From an uncultured Mailhella sp. (GTDB taxonomy: Bacteria; Desulfobacterota; Desulfovibrionia; Desulfovibrionales; Desulfovibrionaceae): a stretch of DNA of 64,000 nucleotides. The stretch covers positions 1-64,000 of the forward strand of contig CALUTB010000001.1 in assembly GCA_944323575.1 (NCBI GenBank), in the 5' to 3' direction. How positions within the stretch are numbered: position 1 is the stretch's first letter; every line of letters starts with the position of its first letter. Shown piece after piece: positions 17,453 to 64,000 of the stretch. Below the pieces are notes generated by a model. That model was not told where the DNA came from. It did not search any database and saw only the letters and a program-made list of their open reading frames with translations. Made by a program: the position numbers and the translations under genes.

Positions 17453-17965
17453 CTATCTTCTGCCCTTTCTCATCTTCTTGTCATAGAGAGAACGCTTGAG
17501 ATAGCTGATGTGATCGATGAACAGCTTGCCGTCGAGGTGATCGGTTTCGTGCTGCATGCAGGCGCCGTAGTAGCCTTCGCCTTCGATATGGACGGGGTTG
17601 CCGTCGAGATCAAGGGCATCGAGAGCCACACGGCGGGGACGCTTCACCTTGGCGCGAAGCTCGGGCACGGAAAGACAGCCTTCATTTTCTTCATGGCCTT
17701 TCGGATCGAGTACGGTAATCACGGGATTTACGAACACTCTGAATTCCTGAGGCAGGTCGGGGTCGTTCTTTTCCTGGGACACGTCAATGATCACCACGCG
17801 CTTGAGCACGCCGATCTGCGGCGCGGCAATGCCCACGCCGCCCACGGTAGTGAGGGTGTCGAGCATATCTTTGGCAAGGGCGCGGATGTCGTCGTTGATC
17901 TCGGCCACAGGTTCGCTGACCTTGGCGAGAAGCGGATCGGGATACTGAAGAACGGGACGAAGCAT
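17453..17965 (-). CDS. def: Peptide deformylase
   Basis: Removes the formyl group from nascent proteins. The 170-residue product has all three metal/active-site motifs: GVGIAAPQ (43-50), EGCLS with metal ligand Cys97, and QHETDHLDG with His139, Glu140 and His143. The start ATG has GGAG 7 nt upstream and lies 4 nt after the aspS stop, so the two are likely translated from one message. A longer open frame overlapping aspS is not credible. Confidence 0.97.
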   Translation of the reverse strand: MLRPVLQYPDPLLAKVSEPVAEINDDIRALAKDMLDTLTTVGGVGIAAPQIGVLKRVVIIDVSQEKNDPDLPQEFRVFVNPVITVLDPKGHEENEGCLSVPELRAKVKRPRRVALDALDLDGNPVHIEGEGYYGACMQHETDHLDGKLFIDHISYLKRSLYDKKMRKGRR

Positions 17966-52487: not shown

Positions 52488-54020
52488 TTATTTTTCCGCC
52501 ACAGCGACATCGCTGTCAAGCAGAGAACGGACGCTGGCCACGGTCTGCATAAACCTTGCACGCTCGGCTTTCGACACGGGGGCGGAACGCGCGCCGGAAA
52601 GGCTGTCGGGGTTGACGAACTTGCCGTTCTTCATGACGCGAAAATCCAGATGCGGTCCGGTAGCGGTACCCGTCGCGCCGACAAAGGCCACGACTTCGCC
52701 CTGATCCACCTTCTGGCCGACCTTGAGGGAAGAGGCAAAACGGGAAAGATGCGCATACTGCGTTTCGATGCCGCCGCTGTGACGGATGACGAGCGTATTG
52801 CCGTAACCGCCCTTCCAGCCCTTGAAGGTCACCTTGCCGGCGCCGAGAGCCTTGACCGGCGTGCCGCGGGGAGCCGCATAGTCCACGCCCTGATGCGGAC
52901 GAACCTTGCCGAAAATGGGATGCTTGCGGTGCATGGTGTAGCCGGAGCTGACGCGTGTGAAGTTGAGCGGAGCCTTGAGAAATTCCGTTTCGAGGGAGCT
53001 GCCGTCGGCGGCAAAGTAGTGAGCCGTGCCGCTCTTGTCCACAAAGCGGAAGGCTTCAAAGGCAGTTCCGTCATTGACGAAGCGCGCGGCGATGATGTCG
53101 CCGTAACGACGGAAGTCGTCGCCGAGATATTTCTTTTCCACGACCATCTCGAAGGTATCGCCGTCCTGCACCTCGTTCACGAAGTTGATCTGATGACTGA
53201 ATACTTCGGCCAGTTCCACGGCCAGATTGGCGGATTCTCCGGCATCGGCCATGGCCTCGAACAGAGAAGAATGAATGACGCCGCTCACGCGGACAAGCTT
53301 CGTATCAAATTCAAAGACGTCCACGCGCGCCGTGAATCCATCTTCGGTGCGCTCAACGACGAGACGGCTCTCTTCGTTGATGTCATAGCAAAAACGATTC
53401 GCGGTTCCGGACTCCTTGTCGCGCTCCACGCTGAACAGATGCCCGGGAATGAGTCTGTTCAGAGAAAAAACGGCAGAGGCGGCCTTCACGGCCTGATCCG
53501 TCTCATTGGCGTTCAGCCACTTGAGAAAAAGCGCTCCGGCATTGTCGCCGCTGCGGATGGCGCTGCGGAACACCTGCGTGCCGCAGCCGGAATCCTCCAC
53601 CATGTACCGTTCATCCTCTTCCCACGGCACGGCTTCGGAATAGTTCGGTATGCACATGCCTTCTCTTGAGGAAAGAAAGGCACTCAGTGAATCATCATAT
53701 CTTGCGCCTGCCCCCGCATCCTCTCCGGACAGCCCGCCTTCGTCCCAGAAATCCCTCATCCAGGAAAGCCCGCTGCCGAGAGAAGCAAGCTGCGTCTGCT
53801 GCGGCTGCGACACCTCGATGCATCCTGAAAAATCATGAGGCTTCACGGTCTCAGCAAGCAGTTCCGTACCGTTCTGTTCGAATCCGGCCGTCATGAGAAG
53901 CGAAGAACTCTCCTGATTCCGGGAAAGAAAAACGGCTCCGGCAGTGAACGCCGAGCCGACAAGCACACAACAAAGCACACGGGAAAAGAGCGTGCGGAAG
54001 ATTTGATATTTTTTTATCAT
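52488..54020 (-). CDS. MepM-type M23 peptidase (peptidoglycan endopeptidase)
   Basis: A 510-residue envelope protein. It has a single N-terminal membrane anchor (about residues 12-32, beginning MIKKYQIFRTLFSRV) and a long variable periplasmic region with four cysteines. An OapA/LysM-like segment (RLIPGHLFSVERD) and the SP-type middle domain precede a C-terminal M23 domain. The zinc-site motifs are PHQGVDYAAPRGTPV, TQYAHLSRF and GPHLDFRV, and all three metal-binding histidines are present, so it should be active against D,D-crosslinks. The ATG at 54020 fits better than the 23-codon longer frame. Divergent from the dnaA remnant. Confidence 0.92.
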   Translation of the reverse strand: MIKKYQIFRTLFSRVLCCVLVGSAFTAGAVFLSRNQESSSLLMTAGFEQNGTELLAETVKPHDFSGCIEVSQPQQTQLASLGSGLSWMRDFWDEGGLSGEDAGAGARYDDSLSAFLSSREGMCIPNYSEAVPWEEDERYMVEDSGCGTQVFRSAIRSGDNAGALFLKWLNANETDQAVKAASAVFSLNRLIPGHLFSVERDKESGTANRFCYDINEESRLVVERTEDGFTARVDVFEFDTKLVRVSGVIHSSLFEAMADAGESANLAVELAEVFSHQINFVNEVQDGDTFEMVVEKKYLGDDFRRYGDIIAARFVNDGTAFEAFRFVDKSGTAHYFAADGSSLETEFLKAPLNFTRVSSGYTMHRKHPIFGKVRPHQGVDYAAPRGTPVKALGAGKVTFKGWKGGYGNTLVIRHSGGIETQYAHLSRFASSLKVGQKVDQGEVVAFVGATGTATGPHLDFRVMKNGKFVNPDSLSGARSAPVSKAERARFMQTVASVRSLLDSDVAVAEK

Positions 54021-54141
54021 AACGCCTGACGCTTCATGGCTGACAATGCAAAGGGGGAAAAGAAGAACGCCCAGACAGTATATAACCAAGAAACTGCTTG
54101 TTTATGCAAGCGTTTTCTGGTAAAAAAATTTATGCCCGGCA

Positions 54142-54218
54142 GTCTGTACAGACAGTCACATCCATATGTCGGATGATGTAAGTATCTTTATGATTTCCCT
54201 ATGTTATGTACATCATCC
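54142..54218. promoter_or_regulatory. Palindromes in the region between the M23 gene and the dnaA remnant
   Basis: A perfect 12-bp palindrome GTCTGTACAGAC (54142-54153) is followed by a perfect 10-bp inverted repeat GGATGATGTA (54171-54180) and TACATCATCC (54209-54218). The 28-nt spacer is AT-rich. It looks like an operator cluster; the bound protein is unknown. GTTATGTACA here is one base away from a DnaA box. Confidence 0.5.
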
Positions 54219-54263: not shown

Positions 54264-55574
54264 ATGAGCATTGTTTCCAGCTTTCCCCGGGATCCGGACG
54301 GTAAAGGAAGACAGAAGAACAAAAACTTCGTCTTCTCCGGGACCACGCAGAATTCCGACGTCAGACTTGTCCGCAACACCCTTGTCTGGCATCTCAGCGA
54401 CAGCATGCCGGAGTATGTTTCCCCGCTCTCCTTTCAACTGCGGGAAATCAGTGACGAGCGAATACTGACCATTTTCACGCCTCACGAACGCTTCTTCCTT
54501 TGGTACGACGTCAGGGATCTGGAGCGGGCCGCATATGACGCCTTCGGAACCCGTACATCCTTCTGCTGCGACTGGCCCCGCAGATCCGCGACGCTTCCGC
54601 AATCAGCAACGAAACGGGAATACGGATTCGACCTCTTTCTTCTGAACGGCGACAACAGGGGAACCGTCCGACTCTTTCGAAGCGCCCTTGTCCGTTCCTC
54701 CGCCCCGGTTCTGTTGAAGGCTCCTTCCGGTTCAGAAAAAACACATCTTCTCCAAGCGGCATACCGACATCTGCAGGAGCGTTTCCACGGCAATGTTCTT
54801 CTTTTCGGCAGTGAGCTGTGCCCGGCTGAAAACACCCCAGCGCTGCCTCGTCCGTCGGAACGACCATACAGCGTCGTTCCGGTCGATGATCCGCAGTTTC
54901 TGGAAGCGTCTGCCGCAGTGCAAAGAATGCCGGCCTCCTTTCTCGATCTTCTCTCCGGACAGGTTCTCTCCGGCGACGGCGCTCTCATCGACGAACTGCA
55001 CAACGGACTTCTTTCTCATCTTTCTCTGCTCCTGTCCGCTCCCGATCAGGACATACGGATGCGCTTCACGCAAATGCCCATGAAAAGAGCCGGACTTCCT
55101 GATCATCGGGATACGGCTCTTCTGCCGGTACGCCGCTGTCTGAAACTGCATCATATTCAGGGCATCCCGGAACATATGCCGTCTTCGTTACGAACAAAGC
55201 GGCCCCCTGCCTTTACCCTCGGCAATGAACAGCATTCTGAACTCCTCCTACTCTGCCGTGCCGGCAGATACAGATGCCATCCTCGCGGCCGTGGCGGCAA
55301 ACTATGGCTGTACCTCCGCTCAACTTATGGAAAACAAAAGAGAAAAAAATTTACGCCGCCGCGTCAGCCAGGCATATATTCATGCCGGACCATTCTCGGA
55401 GAAAACTACCCGGCTCAGGGACGCATCTTCGGAGAAAGAACCACCAGCATCATCATGTATCCCAAGAAAAAAATTGAAAAATTCAAAGTTATGAACAAAG
55501 ATGCACACATTCTGCTCACAAAGCTGACGAAACATTGCACATATGACGCGCCGGGAGGCCCCGCCCGGTTGTAA
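54264..55574 (+). pseudogene. dnaA: Decayed dnaA in the canonical dnaA-dnaN slot
   Basis: DnaA homology runs along the whole locus but the gene is damaged. A domain I-like region (about 54361-54585) is followed by a P-loop reading APSGSEKTHLL, where the family has Gly-Lys-Thr, so the invariant glycine is now Glu. The Walker B neighbourhood reads VDDPQFLE, and the arginine-finger segment reads GLLSHLSLLL in place of the usual RLRSRLS type. Translation is frame 3 up to about 55220. Domain IV (AILAAVAANYGCTSAQLMENKR) is then in frame 1, up to an A7 run at 55343-55349. After it, PPRQPGIYSCRTILGENYP and FGERTTSII return to frame 3. The DHTT box is shortened. Two opposite frameshifts plus multiple key-residue losses indicate a pseudogene; assembly error at the A7 run is an alternative for one of them. 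Confidence 0.8.
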
Positions 55575-55589
55575 ATGAGCGTCATCTTC

Positions 55590-55618
55590 CTGACAGTTTC
55601 TGATTTTGTTCCTATAAA
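55590..55618 (+). promoter_or_regulatory. Candidate sigma-70 promoter of dnaN
   Basis: CTGACA, a 17-nt spacer and TATAAA (5 of 6 matches in each element) lie 16 nt after the dnaA remnant's stop codon. It would give dnaN independent transcription, about 70 nt before its ATG. Confidence 0.6.
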
Positions 55619-55657
55619 ATTGATTTAATTCAATCTGTTAAAGAAGATAGGAACAAA
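55605..55657. promoter_or_regulatory. 11-bp inverted repeat overlapping the dnaN promoter
   Basis: TTTGTTCCTAT (55605-55615) and ATAGGAACAAA (55647-55657), a perfect inverted repeat with a 31-nt AT-rich spacer. The left arm overlaps the promoter spacer and -10. Possible operator or unwinding-element flank. Confidence 0.55.
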
Positions 55658-55666
55658 TTATCCACA
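55658..55666 (+). promoter_or_regulatory. DnaA box
   Basis: TTATCCACA, an exact match to the strong DnaA box consensus, at the edge of the inverted repeat and 28 nt before the dnaN ATG. Confidence 0.75.
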
Positions 55667-55693
55667 TTAAACCCTCTACTACAAGGAATAACT

Positions 55694-56860
55694 ATGTATT
55701 TGACCGTAAAAAAGGAACAGATCATTGAAGGCCTGCAGAAAGCGGCATCCATCATTCCCAGCAAGGCAGGTGCCGCTTATCTGCGTTCGATATGGCTTCA
55801 GGCACTCAAAGGAGGTGACGGTGACCGGCTCACCATCATGTCCACGGACGTGAACATCGAATTCACGGGGACCTATCCCGTAGAAATCAGGGAGGAAGGT
55901 ACTGCGGGCGTCAACGGACGCGCCTTCGTGGAACTTCTGCGTCGTCTTCCCGGAGGAGAAATCACGCTCCGTCTTGATGAGGAGTCGCACATTCTGTCCG
56001 TGGAACAGGGACGCCGTTCCTATAAACTTCCTACAGTAGACCCCGTCTGGTTTCAGCCCCTTCCCCCCTTCCCTGAAGAAGGCGCAGTGCTCTGGTCCGG
56101 TGATTTCTTTCAGGACATCATCGACAAGGTGGCCTTCTGCATCAGCGATGACGACAGCGCGGAAGGCCTGGCCTGTCTTTATTTCAAGGCCGGTGAAGAA
56201 GGAAAGGTGGATGCCTGCGGTCTGAACGGACATCAGTTTGCCATGGTGCGCTTCATCAACGACGAGCTTGCCCGCCTGCTTCCTGAAAACGGCCTGCTCA
56301 TTCAGAAGAAGTATGTTAATGAACTGCGCAAGTGGCTCGGCAGCGACGAGGTCATGCTGAACATCAGCGAACGCCGTTTCCATATCCGTACCGGATCCGG
56401 CAGTGAGACACTGAGCATTCCCCGCAGCGCCAACTTCAGCTATCCCGACCATCTGAGCTTCCTTGCCAGACTGGACGGAGCGAACACCTCCCAGCTTGAC
56501 GTGGATCGCCGGGAAACGATGGATGCTCTTGATCGTCTGCTCATTTTCAACAACGACAGCGATCGCTGTACCTACTTCCGCTTCTCTCCCCGGGAAGTTG
56601 AGCTTTCCGCTCAGGGACAGGAAACCGGTTCCGCCACCGAGCATCTGGAAGGTACCTTCCAGGGGGATCTGGAACTCATAGCCTTCCCCACCCGCAGTCT
56701 GATGGACATTCTGGGACATTTTCAGTCTTCCAGTCTGCATTATGTGTTCACCGGAGCGGAAGGTCCCTGCGGCATCACAGGTTCGGACGACGCTGAGTAC
56801 ACCGTCATACTCATGCCCATGAAGATCGCGGAATCCTCCTACTATACCGAGGAGGAATAG
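55694..56860 (+). CDS. dnaN: DNA polymerase III beta subunit (sliding clamp)
   Basis: Ring-shaped processivity clamp of three similar domains per subunit, two subunits per ring. The 388-residue product is normal in length. MYLTVKKEQIIEGLQKAASI opens it, GVNGRAFVELLRRLPGGEI lies in domain I, and DGHQF-type loops (GLNGHQFAMV) lie in domain II. The C-terminus ends with YTVILMPMKI, the family's VMPMR-like peptide-binding pocket. AAGGA lies 7 nt before the ATG. It follows the dnaA remnant, has its own apparent promoter and a strong terminator. Confidence 0.97.
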   Translation: MYLTVKKEQIIEGLQKAASIIPSKAGAAYLRSIWLQALKGGDGDRLTIMSTDVNIEFTGTYPVEIREEGTAGVNGRAFVELLRRLPGGEITLRLDEESHILSVEQGRRSYKLPTVDPVWFQPLPPFPEEGAVLWSGDFFQDIIDKVAFCISDDDSAEGLACLYFKAGEEGKVDACGLNGHQFAMVRFINDELARLLPENGLLIQKKYVNELRKWLGSDEVMLNISERRFHIRTGSGSETLSIPRSANFSYPDHLSFLARLDGANTSQLDVDRRETMDALDRLLIFNNDSDRCTYFRFSPREVELSAQGQETGSATEHLEGTFQGDLELIAFPTRSLMDILGHFQSSSLHYVFTGAEGPCGITGSDDAEYTVILMPMKIAESSYYTEEE

Positions 56861-56967: not shown

Positions 56968-59501
<2,534 letters not shown>

Positions 59502-59600
59502 CGATGAAAATGAAACTGCGCTGCTTTTTTCGTGAAGCGCGCGGTTTCGGCTTTTCTTTCAGAGGAAATTCGCAACATATCGCTTCAAAGGATTCCTACT

Positions 59601-62039
59601 GTGGCAGAATTCAAAGTTGATATAGAAAAAGAGCTGCGTCAGTCCTATCTGGCCTATTCGCTCAGCGTCATCATCGGCCGTGCCATTCCCGATGCGCGTG
59701 ACGGTCTCAAGCCCGTACACCGACGCATCCTTTTCGCACAGTCCCAGATGGCCAATACCTACAACAGGCCCACAAAGAAAAGCGCCCGTGTTGTCGGCGA
59801 CGTCATCGGCAAATACCATCCCCATGGAGATTCAGCCGTATACGATGCCCTTGTGCGTATGGCACAGGATTTCAACATGCGCGATCCTCTGGAAGACGGG
59901 CAAGGCAACTTCGGCTCCATCGACGGCGACTCCGCCGCAGCCATGCGGTATACCGAAGTGCGTATGTCCCGTCTGGCCTCGGAATTTCTGGACGACATCG
60001 ACAAGAAGACCGTGGATTTTCGTCCGAACTACGACGGTTCGGAACAGGAACCGGAAGTACTGCCGACCAAAGTGCCGAATCTGCTGCTCAATGGTTCGTC
60101 CGGCATCGCCGTGGGCATGGCCACCAATATTCCTCCCCACAACCTCGGGGAGCTTTGTGATGCCCTTCTGAGGCTTATCGACGAGCCTGACTGCACGGTC
60201 GATGATCTCATCGATCTCGTGCATGGCCCCGATTTTCCTACCGCCGGTTTCGTGTATGCCGGCCAGGGACTCCTTGACGCCTATCGTACAGGCCGCGGCG
60301 TCGTGAAGGTGCGCGGCCGGGTGGAAGTCGAAGAGCGCAAGAAGGGACAGCAGTCCGTGGTCATCCGCGAGATTCCCTATGCCCTCAACAAGTCCGTGCT
60401 CGTGACCAAGATCGCCGCGCTCGTCAATGATCGCAAGCTCGACGGCGTGACGGATCTGCGCGATCTCTCGGACAAGAAGGGCATCCGCATCATTCTGGAT
60501 CTTCGCCGCGGAACCATTCCAGAACTGGTGATCAACGCTCTTTACAAGTACACGCCTCTGGAAACGTCCTTCGGCATCAATATGCTGGCCGTGGTGGACA
60601 ACAAGCCTCAGCAGCTTAATCTGCGCACCGCGCTCACCTGTTTTCTTGATCATCGCCGTGAGGTCGTCATCCGGCGCACCCGTTTTGATCTGGAAAAGGC
60701 GCAGGCCCGCGCGCATATCGTGGAAGGCCTGCTCAAGGCCCTCGACATCATCGACGAAATCGTCGCACTCATCCGAGGATCGGAAACGCCGCAGGAAGCC
60801 AAGGCCGGTCTGGTGGATCGGTTCGGATTCACGGAAATTCAGGCACAGAGCATTCTGGACATGCGCCTGCAGCGTCTCACCGGACTGGAGCGCGACAAGC
60901 TGCTGGAAGAATACCGTGAGCTGCAGAAGCTTATAGCCTACCTCACGTCCATCCTTGAGGATGCTGAAGTTCTGCGCGGCGTGCTGCGAGAGGAAACAAA
61001 GTACATCAAGAATACCTATGCCACTCCCCGCAGAACCGAAGTTGTCATGGACGAGCTTTCCGGCATCGACATCGAGGATCTCATCCCGGATGAGGATGTG
61101 GTCATCACGCTTTCTCGTCGAGGCTACATCAAGCGTACCACCCTGGCCAACTATCAGCAGCAGAAAAGAGGAGGCAAGGGCATTGCCGGACTGCATACCT
61201 CCGAAGACGATTTCGTGCAGGAGTTTCTGACCACCACGAATCATCAGTATCTTCTGCTCTTCACCAACAAGGGGCGCATGCATCAGCTCAAGGTTCATCA
61301 GGTTCCCGAAGGCAGCCGTACCGCCAAGGGCATGCATATCGCCAACCTGTTGCCTCTGGAAAAGGATGAATGGGTGGCCAATGCCCTGACCGTGCGCGAG
61401 TTTTCGGAGAACAGCTATTTTCTGTTCACCACGAGGCAGGGCATGGTCAAGCGCTCCAGTGCTTCTTTGTACGCCCGCTGCCGCAAGAGCGGCATGATCG
61501 CTCTCAGCCTCAAGGAAGGCGATCAGCTCATCGCCGTGCGTGAAGTGACGGATTCCGATCATGTGGTACTGGCTACGGCTCACGGCATGGCCATACGCTT
61601 TGCCATGCCCGATGTGCGTCCGATGGGACGCAGCGCTTCCGGCGTCAAGGGCATAGGCCTGCGCCGCGGCGACGAAGTCGTGGCCTGCGTCACCGTCAGG
61701 GACGGAGACAGTTCCACCATGATCATGACGGTTTCCGCCCTCGGCTACGGCAAGCGTACGAAGATCGATCTGTACCGTATGCAGAGCCGCGGCGGCATAG
61801 GCCTCATCAACTTCAAGGTGTCGCCCAAGACCGGTTCCGTCATCGGCGCCATGCCCGTGTCCGATACGGACTCCCTGATCCTTCTGACCTCCACCAACAA
61901 GATCATTCGCCTCGGCGTGGATGAAGTCCGTTCCGTCGGACGCGCCACCATGGGTGTCCGCCTCGTCCGTCTCGATGAAGGTGCAAGCGTCGTCGGCTTC
62001 GATACCGTGTCGGACAGTGGAGAAAGTGAGGAGGAATAG
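59601..62039 (+). CDS. gyrA: DNA gyrase subunit A
   Basis: Breakage-reunion subunit of gyrase, 812 residues. The GTG start (AAAGGA 8 nt upstream) gives the family N-terminus [19 protein letters not shown]; the longer ATG frame from 59532 is not credible. KPVHRRILF and the quinolone-region [19 protein letters not shown] are present, with the catalytic tyrosine in [12 protein letters not shown]. The C-terminal beta-pinwheel has the GyrA-box QQKRGGKG. The quinolone-resistance position is Ser (HGDSAVYD), the usual wild-type form. Confidence 0.98.
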
Positions 62040-62349
62040 AGAATGTACCAGGGAGGGAAGAAAACTTTCTGAAGAAAATTTCCCTCCTTCAAGGATTTTT
62101 ATAACGGGTTGTATGTAGGCCCGGAGAAATCCCCGCTCTTCTTTGAGAAGCGCGGGGATTTTTTGTGGTATGGAACGTGTTTTTTATAATGAGAAAAAAT
62201 TTTTAAGTACGTTTTTTGGGTATTGTCCTCATTTTTAGTAAAAAAGAAAATGTCCCGAATAAAATTTTAGAAAGAAGGATGGGGTGAGGGGGAAGAATAA
62301 CGGCCCTTTTTCAAAAGGTTTTCCTCCTCTCGTCGTATACTTTTCCCCG
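62040..62349. other. 310-nt region between gyrA and the ClC gene
   Basis: It contains an inverted repeat GGAGGGAA/TTCCCTCC at about 62052-62088 and the gyrA terminator at 62128-62166. The rest (62167-62349) is AT-rich with runs of T and A. No gene or RNA is evident; it is the tail-to-tail gap of two convergent genes. Confidence 0.7.
62128..62166 (+). terminator. Rho-independent terminator after gyrA
   Basis: AATCCCCGC/GCGGGGATT stem with a TCTTC-type inner loop and a run of Ts. Confidence 0.9.
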
Positions 62350-63675
62350 TTACTTTTTCTTCGAAACGACGATGGCGGCACGCAGAGAGTCATAGATCGG
62401 CGGGCAGTGAAGGGCATTTGCGGTCCATGAGGCGATGAAGGCCACAACGACGGCTTCCGGAAGGCAGGATAGAGATCCGGACATTTCCATGACCAGTGCG
62501 ATGCCCGTCAGAGGAGCACGGACCATGGAAACGAAAAAGCCCACCATGCCCCATATGATGAACGATTCCCATTGATCGGAAGCGATGATGCTCGTATGCA
62601 TCAGCACCTGTCCGCAGAGAGCACCGAGAAGTGCTCCTATGCACAGCATGGGCATGAGTATGCCTCCCGGAACATTGCCCGTGTAGCTGAACAGGGAGAA
62701 GACGATCTTCAGTACGGCAAGAAGCATCAGCAGAGACAGAAGGTCTCTCGGAGGCGTGGACGTCATGTGAACAAGGCTGCTGACGAGATCTTCGCCTCCG
62801 CCGAGGACGGAGGGACAGACGAATGTCAGTAGAAAGGCGGCCAGCATGGGAGGCAGCATGCGCCAGTTCTGAGAAAGAGGCGTGTGCTGCGTTTCAGCAT
62901 TCTTGGTGCTGATCAAAGCCTTGTTGTACAGCACGCCTGCTACGCCCATGACGACGCCCGTGATGGGAATCAGCCAGAAGGAAGAAGCAGGCAGCGCCTG
63001 AATATGCCTGAAGGGAAAGATGAGACCGAAGTCGAAAAGATGACGGGTGGTGAGTGCGGCAGCGCCGACGGCGCATCCGACGGCAAGAAACGTGCCCAAG
63101 GTAAGCCTGCTCTTCATTTCCTCGAAGACGAACAGCAGACCTGCAATCGGAGCACCGAAGGCGGCGGTCATGCCTGCTCCTGCGCCCGCCGCGATGCAGA
63201 TGCGCCCCGAATAGAAGAAGCGTTCCCACAGTCCCGTCAGCAGGGCGGCCGTGGCCGCTCCCATCTGTATGCATGGACCTTCACGACCGAGAGCCAGTCC
63301 TCCCAGTGTTGCGATGAGGCAGCCGGCGAATTTTGCCGGCAGTATTTTGAGCCAGTCATGACGTGAAAGGTGGAGTTTGCCCTGAACGATCAGTTCCGTC
63401 TGAGGAATGCCGCTGCCTGAGATGAGAGGCGTCGCAGATACGAGAAATCCCAGAAAGCGTGCGGCAATCACCAGAATGAGCAGCCAGAGCGGCATGATCC
63501 ACCAATGTTGCTGCCATTCTGAAAGCCGGTGCATGATGAAAGGCGAGGCATGATCGCGGATCAGTCGGAAAGCGCATATGAGGCAGGCGCAGACAAATCC
63601 TGCGACGGCTCCTTCTATGGAAAGGGGAAGAAGTCTGTCGAGGCTGTATTTCCAGTGTCTATGGCGGGTGTTCAT
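62350..63675 (-). CDS. ClC-family chloride channel/exchanger
   Basis: A 441-residue polytopic ClC protein, either a channel or a 2Cl-/H+ exchanger. The three anion-path signatures are GSGIPQ, GREGPCIQMG (with the gating glutamate) and GNVPGGILMP in place of the usual GGxFxP. The start MNTRHRHWKY is preferred by length, though no strong Shine-Dalgarno is visible; longer ATG and GTG frames up to 63864 are open. There is no C-terminal CBS pair, which is common in short bacterial forms. It is convergent with gyrA. Confidence 0.9.
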   Translation of the reverse strand: MNTRHRHWKYSLDRLLPLSIEGAVAGFVCACLICAFRLIRDHASPFIMHRLSEWQQHWWIMPLWLLILVIAARFLGFLVSATPLISGSGIPQTELIVQGKLHLSRHDWLKILPAKFAGCLIATLGGLALGREGPCIQMGAATAALLTGLWERFFYSGRICIAAGAGAGMTAAFGAPIAGLLFVFEEMKSRLTLGTFLAVGCAVGAAALTTRHLFDFGLIFPFRHIQALPASSFWLIPITGVVMGVAGVLYNKALISTKNAETQHTPLSQNWRMLPPMLAAFLLTFVCPSVLGGGEDLVSSLVHMTSTPPRDLLSLLMLLAVLKIVFSLFSYTGNVPGGILMPMLCIGALLGALCGQVLMHTSIIASDQWESFIIWGMVGFFVSMVRAPLTGIALVMEMSGSLSCLPEAVVVAFIASWTANALHCPPIYDSLRAAIVVSKKK

Positions 63676-64000
63676 AAGTTCGGAAGCGTTGATGTTGACG
63701 AAAAGGGGCATTCGGTACGTACTGCCGAAAAGCGTCGTTCTTATCGGAACGCATATGGAACGGAAATATGAAAAGACGTAGCGGAAAGGGAGAAACGTCC
63801 GGGCGGAAGGTCTCCTGAAAAAATCTGTTCGCTGCCGGAGGATGATGACGGAAACATGGTGCACAGCAATGACAGGAGCATCTTCTCTTTTTTTCTGTTT
63901 GTCGAGAAAAACTCTTCGGTTATCTATGAGAACTTTTGTTATGCGGAATCGTGGTATTCGGATAGAGTCCTTCAGGAGAGCGGAAAAGACAGGATGATGA
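63676..64000. other. Upstream of the ClC gene to the window edge
   Basis: The first part (63676-63864) is open in the ClC frame and may hold its true start. The last 136 nt have no supported gene. The final bases, AGGATGATGA, could be the start of a plus-strand gene beyond the window. Confidence 0.3.

Follow-up and report, generated by a model that had tools for sequence, protein, structure and literature searches.

The dnaA-1 locus and its neighbours

The window, meaning the whole 64-kb stretch of DNA that was analysed, belongs to a Mailhella genome assembly of 2.77 Mb in 200 contigs with a completeness of 100%. It carries a dnaA-like gene, here called dnaA-1 (54264..55574; plus strand, like all features below unless stated otherwise), which directly precedes dnaN (55694..56860), gyrB (57093..59501) and gyrA (59532..62039). 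The dnaN gene was 92-95% identical to those of the closest congeners. An M23-type peptidase gene on the minus strand (52488..54020), assigned to its family by eye and called mepM, served as the synteny anchor beyond dnaA-1. The common bacterial order is dnaA-dnaN-recF-gyrB; no recF-sized ORF was found between the end of dnaN (56860) and the start of gyrB (57093).

The dnaA-1 reading frame was free of stop codons over 457 codons from an ATG at 54201, or 436 codons from the congener-like ATG at 54264. When the gene was aligned with its intact congeners, however, the P-loop, the arginine finger and the DHST residues were all found to be gone. The P-loop read APSGSEKTHL compared to GASGTGKSHL in the congeners, with no intact Walker A motif (GxxGxGKT); the stretch around Walker B read VPVDDPQFLE instead of VVIDDLQFLE; and the arginine-finger stretch read ELHNGLLS instead of ELHDRLCS, with the Arg lost and no arginine finger recognised. 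The alignment thus bore out three changes that the sequence-only reading had proposed, namely the Gly-to-Glu change in the P-loop (SGSEKTHLL), the Leu-to-Pro change beside Walker B and the loss of the arginine finger. A "shortened" DHTT box had also been described, but its length was unchanged and its residues were substituted instead: the window gene read GERTTSIIMYP where congeners had GGKDHSTIMYA, so that D, H and T of DHST were all replaced and neither DHTT nor DHST could be found.

Profile searches placed the window gene below every curated cut-off, with 13.8 bits for Bac_DnaA (cut-off 23), 24.4 bits for Bac_DnaA_C (31.5) and 38.3 bits for TIGR00362 (343.9). The window gene covered 67 positions that do not vary among ten intact congeners, and it differed at 21 of them (31%); the intact genes, each left out in turn, differed at 0-10%. 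From pairwise distances, dN/dS was computed as about 0.5 for the window branch, compared to 0.2-0.4 for two intact branches; pN between the window gene and that of G138, a complete Mailhella genome, was 0.353. With this ratio and a frame that is still open, the suggestion that the decay is recent was supported in part.

Two frameshifts were located by comparison with the intact genes of G138 and G115. The first was one extra base at 55176..55187, and the second, which restored the frame, was an A7 run (55343..55349) one base shorter than in the relatives. Between them the protein reading of the relatives (RYEQ...PADTDAILAAVAANYGCTSAQLMENKREKNL) was found in the +1 frame of the window, so that about 54 codons are read out of frame, and there was no indel relative to G138 from TTACGAACA at 55188 to the A7 run. 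Two opposite frameshifts had indeed been predicted, one of them at the A7 run, but the other lies upstream of its predicted position at 55200-55265. That the frame stays free of stop codons despite both shifts had not been mentioned in the sequence-only reading.

The position of the origin was evaluated from GC skew. The genome of G138 is a single contig of 3,168,613 bp; skew values sampled there were below zero between about 0.16 and 1.45 Mb and above zero between 1.76 and 2.66 Mb. Within the stretch from 1.67 to 1.75 Mb, the cumulative skew was lowest at 1,706,095, which lies 6.3 kb beyond the start of dnaN (1,699,796). At the limited resolution of this method, the origin of G138 is thereby placed no more than about 6.5 kb from dnaN. 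The minimum of the window contig, at 61,973 near the end of gyrA, was likewise 6.3 kb after dnaN. At this distance the minimum supports an origin in the dnaN-gyrA cluster without fixing it at dnaN itself. Directly after gyrA (62040-64000) the skew rose from about -0.03 to +0.14, and the same was seen in G138.

DnaA-2 and the repeated loss of dnaA-1

By profile search the window genome encodes one full DnaA, a protein of 490 aa on contig C26, here called DnaA-2. Its scores exceeded the Pfam cut-offs for DnaA_N (25.9 vs 24.6 bits), Bac_DnaA (149.2 vs 23) and Bac_DnaA_C (72.9 vs 31.5). The TIGR00362 equivalog cut-off was missed (329.2 vs 343.9 bits), which counts against a functional reading; intact DnaA-1 copies reached 153-202 bits on this model, below DnaA-2. 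DnaA-2 keeps domain I, the Walker A motif GLGKTH and the arginine finger SRF, and its Walker B stretch, LLLED with E in place of the first D, was accepted as such. The existence of a second DnaA, which the sequence-only reading had guessed, was therefore established (Bac_DnaA 149 bits, TIGR00362 329 bits), and of the two motifs expected to be intact in it, Walker A was, while the DHTT motif read KHST. The canonical Asp is absent from DnaA-2 throughout the family, with R, K, T, Q or S in its place, and its absence from the DNA-reading helix counts against DnaA-2 as the initiator at this origin.

Profile searches of 149 genomes of the family found DnaA-1 and DnaA-2 together in most, DnaA-1 nearly always carrying the usual motif, [D/N]HST. 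In other DnaAs from the Desulfobacterota side the motif, if found, read KDHST, RDHST or RDHTT. Desulfovibrionaceae thus normally have both paralogs, DnaA-1 at dnaN and DnaA-2 elsewhere. Five genomes of at least 90% completeness (G089, G011, G024, G064 and G101) had DnaA-1 with no DnaA-2 detected, which may stem from gaps in the drafts or from loss running the other way. A DnaA tree gave good support to both clades; since their stems were very long, we make no claim as to which copy is older.

The sister-species comparison covered 18 genomes of the genus with a readable dnaN locus, most of them draft MAGs, and intact, eroded and erased states of dnaA-1 all occurred. The gene was intact in ten genomes and eroded in the window; only a C-terminal scrap was left in five (G157, G156, G158, G147 and G127), and nothing recognisable in two (G153 and G154). 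The five fossils measured 0.96-1.3 kb, with a mepM-dnaN gap of 956-1323 bp compared to about 1673-1722 bp, and the contigs were contiguous there. In a tree built on dnaN, part of gyrB, mepM and dnaA-2, the five fossil genomes did not form one clade (AU test, p = 0.0042 with all sites and 0.0010 with codon positions 1+2), and the fossil genome G157 fell with the intact G115, G138 and G155. A single loss followed by inheritance was ruled out by these tests, and loss of dnaA-1 must therefore have been repeated. Outside the genus, two members of other genera (G006 and G059) had dnaN without dnaA-1 upstream. Their genomes are small (1.5 and 1.9 Mb), and box-like sites remain near -200 and -47.

Where dnaA-1 was still intact it evolved rapidly. 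In close pairs among G138, G155 and G000, pN/pS was 0.42-0.63 for dnaA-1 and 0.02-0.07 for dnaN and dnaA-2. Between G138 and G155, pN was 0.010 for dnaN, 0.017 for dnaA-2 and 0.221 for dnaA-1, with pS at 0.41-0.53. Across the genus, then, dnaA-1 changes fast; the window genome holds an eroded copy, and among sister species the gene has been erased several times. DnaA-2 was present in the window species and in all five fossil species, divided between two contigs in G156 and cut by a contig end in G158.

Box-like sites within and downstream of dnaA-1

Several short elements within dnaA-1 and between it and dnaN resemble DnaA boxes. The candidate box TTACGAACA lies within the gene at -506 from dnaN (55188..55196) and stands out as a conserved island in the fossil relatives. 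Comparison with congeners revealed another, TTATGAACA, at -205 (55489..55497), which is followed by two more DnaA-box-like repeats, ATGCACACA and TGCTCACA, at 11-12 bp spacing (55501..55520). Closer to dnaN an inverted repeat, TTTGTTCCTAT ... ATAGGAACAAA, surrounds an AT-rich stretch (55605..55657; -89 to -37), and the candidate box at -47, ATAGGAACA, sits in its right arm. A perfect consensus DnaA box, TTATCCACA (55658..55666), is the sole exact copy in the 64-kb window. Before the ribosome-binding site of dnaN, the congener comparison showed a conserved CTCTACTAC (55674..55682), which by eye appears DnaA-trio-like on the lower strand when set against the pattern described in PMC8287927.

In all 18 genomes of the genus, TTACGAACA or a one-mismatch variant was present 204-209 bp before dnaN, and the core species had a second TTACGAACA-type copy 482-508 bp before dnaN. 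In every fossil TTACGAACA was still there about 205 bp before dnaN, surrounded by decayed sequence, and most fossils had it about 490 bp before dnaN as well. The distances of the boxes to dnaN held although several genomes had lost the gene around them and the gap had shrunk by up to about 750 bp. When the region from -620 to -130 was searched in the seven gene-less loci, the only 9-mers common to at least five of them were TTACGAACA and overlapping words, TTACGAACA itself standing at -204 to -206 in all seven; none of 2000 shuffled control sets gave any 9-mer shared by at least five of the seven loci. The fossils were 88% identical to G138 over 10 bp at the mid box and about 30% identical on most of either flank. 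At the -205 element identity was 91% and 78% over two 20-bp halves, and about 25% further upstream.

Among the intact genes, the residue encoded at the variable base of the box was T, M, A or R, with GTT and GAACA kept, indicating that DNA rather than protein is under constraint here. Protein coding was rejected as the cause of box conservation on this ground and also because gene-less loci keep the boxes. At the same places, some species of other genera had TTATGCACA, TTATACACA or TTACGCACA, which fit the DnaA-box series TTATNCACA, and we therefore read TTACGAACA as a diverged DnaA box. The pattern TTAYGMACA occurred four times in the 64-kb window (expected 0.52), with two copies at the dnaA-1 locus. 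A further exact TTACGAACA was found at 17728, far from the origin.

Relocation of the origin to dnaA-2 was considered and rejected. In G138, dnaA-2 is at 0.579 Mb, 1.1 Mb from dnaN, and there was neither a skew switch near 0.58 Mb nor a box cluster at dnaA-2. No enrichment of boxes was found at the promoter of dnaA-2 itself, which counts against DnaA-2 as the initiator acting on them.

The gap that separates mepM from dnaA-1 was shown by the congener comparison to contain a conserved non-coding element of 43 bp (54098..54140), which is possibly the upstream half of the origin. It had 0-2 mismatches in nine Mailhella genomes and 3-4 in three more, and in G153, where dnaA-1 is gone, its 3' half was found at -334 from dnaN. 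An Rfam search with this element gave nothing above threshold.

Probable replacement of the initiator and comparison with known systems

Two findings go beyond the sequence-only reading: the genus and the family have lost dnaA-1 repeatedly, and sites of the origin type within it persist after the gene itself has gone. Since the distant copy is intact and the DNA sites within the gene are kept, the initiator was apparently replaced without moving the origin. Judged from the sequences, dnaA-1 is probably a decaying, dispensable initiator, and DnaA-2 would initiate in trans at an unmoved origin whose DnaA boxes lie partly inside the fossil gene. The origin would stay at dnaA-1/dnaN, with the conserved box-like sites as its DnaA boxes. 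DnaA-2, by elimination the likely protein to bind these candidate boxes, would melt the AT-rich stretch before dnaN and load the helicase, and dnaA-1, now dispensable, would decay around boxes that cannot be lost. To the wider proposal we give about even credence: that an initiator takeover is under way, in which members of the family repeatedly drop the origin-linked DnaA and rely on a distant paralog whose DNA-reading helix has changed, the origin boxes (TTACGAACA) suiting the paralog and surviving as islands in the fossil. Counted against the reading of dnaA-1 as a dispensable gene and DnaA-2 as the initiator were the skew minimum at the end of gyrA, 6.3 kb off, the stop-free window ORF and the predominance of draft MAGs.

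As for the boxes, the main rival explanation is that they control transcription of dnaN, or of a dnaA-1/dnaN operon, and are not origin sites. Their fixed distance to the dnaN start, the inverted repeat at -89 to -37 and a conservation measured relative to dnaN only would all suit such a role. We consider it unlikely, as the sites extend 500 bp upstream, three box-like repeats lie 11-12 bp apart, other genera show a consensus of the DnaA-box type and the GC skew places the origin nearby. Control and origin roles may nevertheless coexist.

For the window gene, the strongest rival is that DnaA-1 has become an ATPase-dead DNA-binding protein under selection, because the frame remains open over 457 codons after two shifts. 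With neutral substitutions alone, an open frame would survive 60 of them in 17% of cases and 150 in just 1.2%, and dN/dS, at about 0.5 for the window branch, falls short of 1. However, out-of-frame stretches of 54 codons are open by chance in 31-42% of cases, the helix-turn-helix is damaged as badly as the ATPase site, both in its DHST residues and by the roughly 54 codons out of frame, and the gene was lost outright in sister species. With both domains damaged and sisters living without the gene, such repurposing appears improbable.

Initiation might instead have become independent of DnaA, as in some cyanobacteria and insect symbionts, where loss of dnaA has precedents (PMC7198777, PMC4389277); with DnaA-2 in all five fossil species and the window species, at pN/pS of 0.04-0.08 in the close pairs measured, and with box positions kept, this is very improbable. 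That an intact gene only looks decayed through sequencing or assembly error is scarcely credible even for a draft of 200 contigs with one frameshift at a homopolymer, given the substitutions at 21 of 67 invariant residues on a contig whose dnaN is 94-95% identical to its nearest relatives, and the erased copies in five separate assemblies.

Few arrangements in bacteria are as conserved as that of DnaA at its origin. A genus with intact, eroded and erased origin copies and a retained paralog is therefore a natural experiment on the replacement of an essential initiator, and its fossil genes indicate which origin sites matter, because only such sites stay readable. Our literature search, mostly without subscription papers, found none on the two DnaAs of Desulfovibrionaceae, on origin-linked dnaA decay or on the oriC of Desulfovibrio.

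Under the probable reading, with DnaA-2 acting at an unmoved origin, the locus can be compared to several known systems. The intact congeners share gene order, domain layout and residues with bacterial DnaA (TIGR00362, PF00308/PF08299) in its dnaA-dnaN-gyrB-gyrA cluster, and DnaA-box-like repeats and an AT-rich stretch lie between dnaA and dnaN as in the standard origin cluster. The window copy differs in lacking the catalytic and DNA-reading residues; the DnaA presumed to do the work comes from a gene elsewhere in the genome and is without the canonical Asp of DHTT. As in the bacterial origin unwinding system, BUS (PMC8287927), a box, a spacer and a DnaA-trio-like CTACTA precede dnaN, but here the boxes diverge from TTATCCACA in most congeners and the trio was assigned by eye. 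Chlamydiales such as Waddlia also have two dnaA paralogs, neither of which is linked to the GC-skew minimum (PMC2878342); in Mailhella, by contrast, one paralog is near the minimum, and that one is being lost. Repeated dnaA decay, including a pseudogene, is known from insect symbionts (Blochmannia, PMC4389277) and cyanobacteria (PMC7198777). The losing lineages there are left without dnaA, whereas in Mailhella a strongly constrained paralog remains and the positions of the boxes are conserved.
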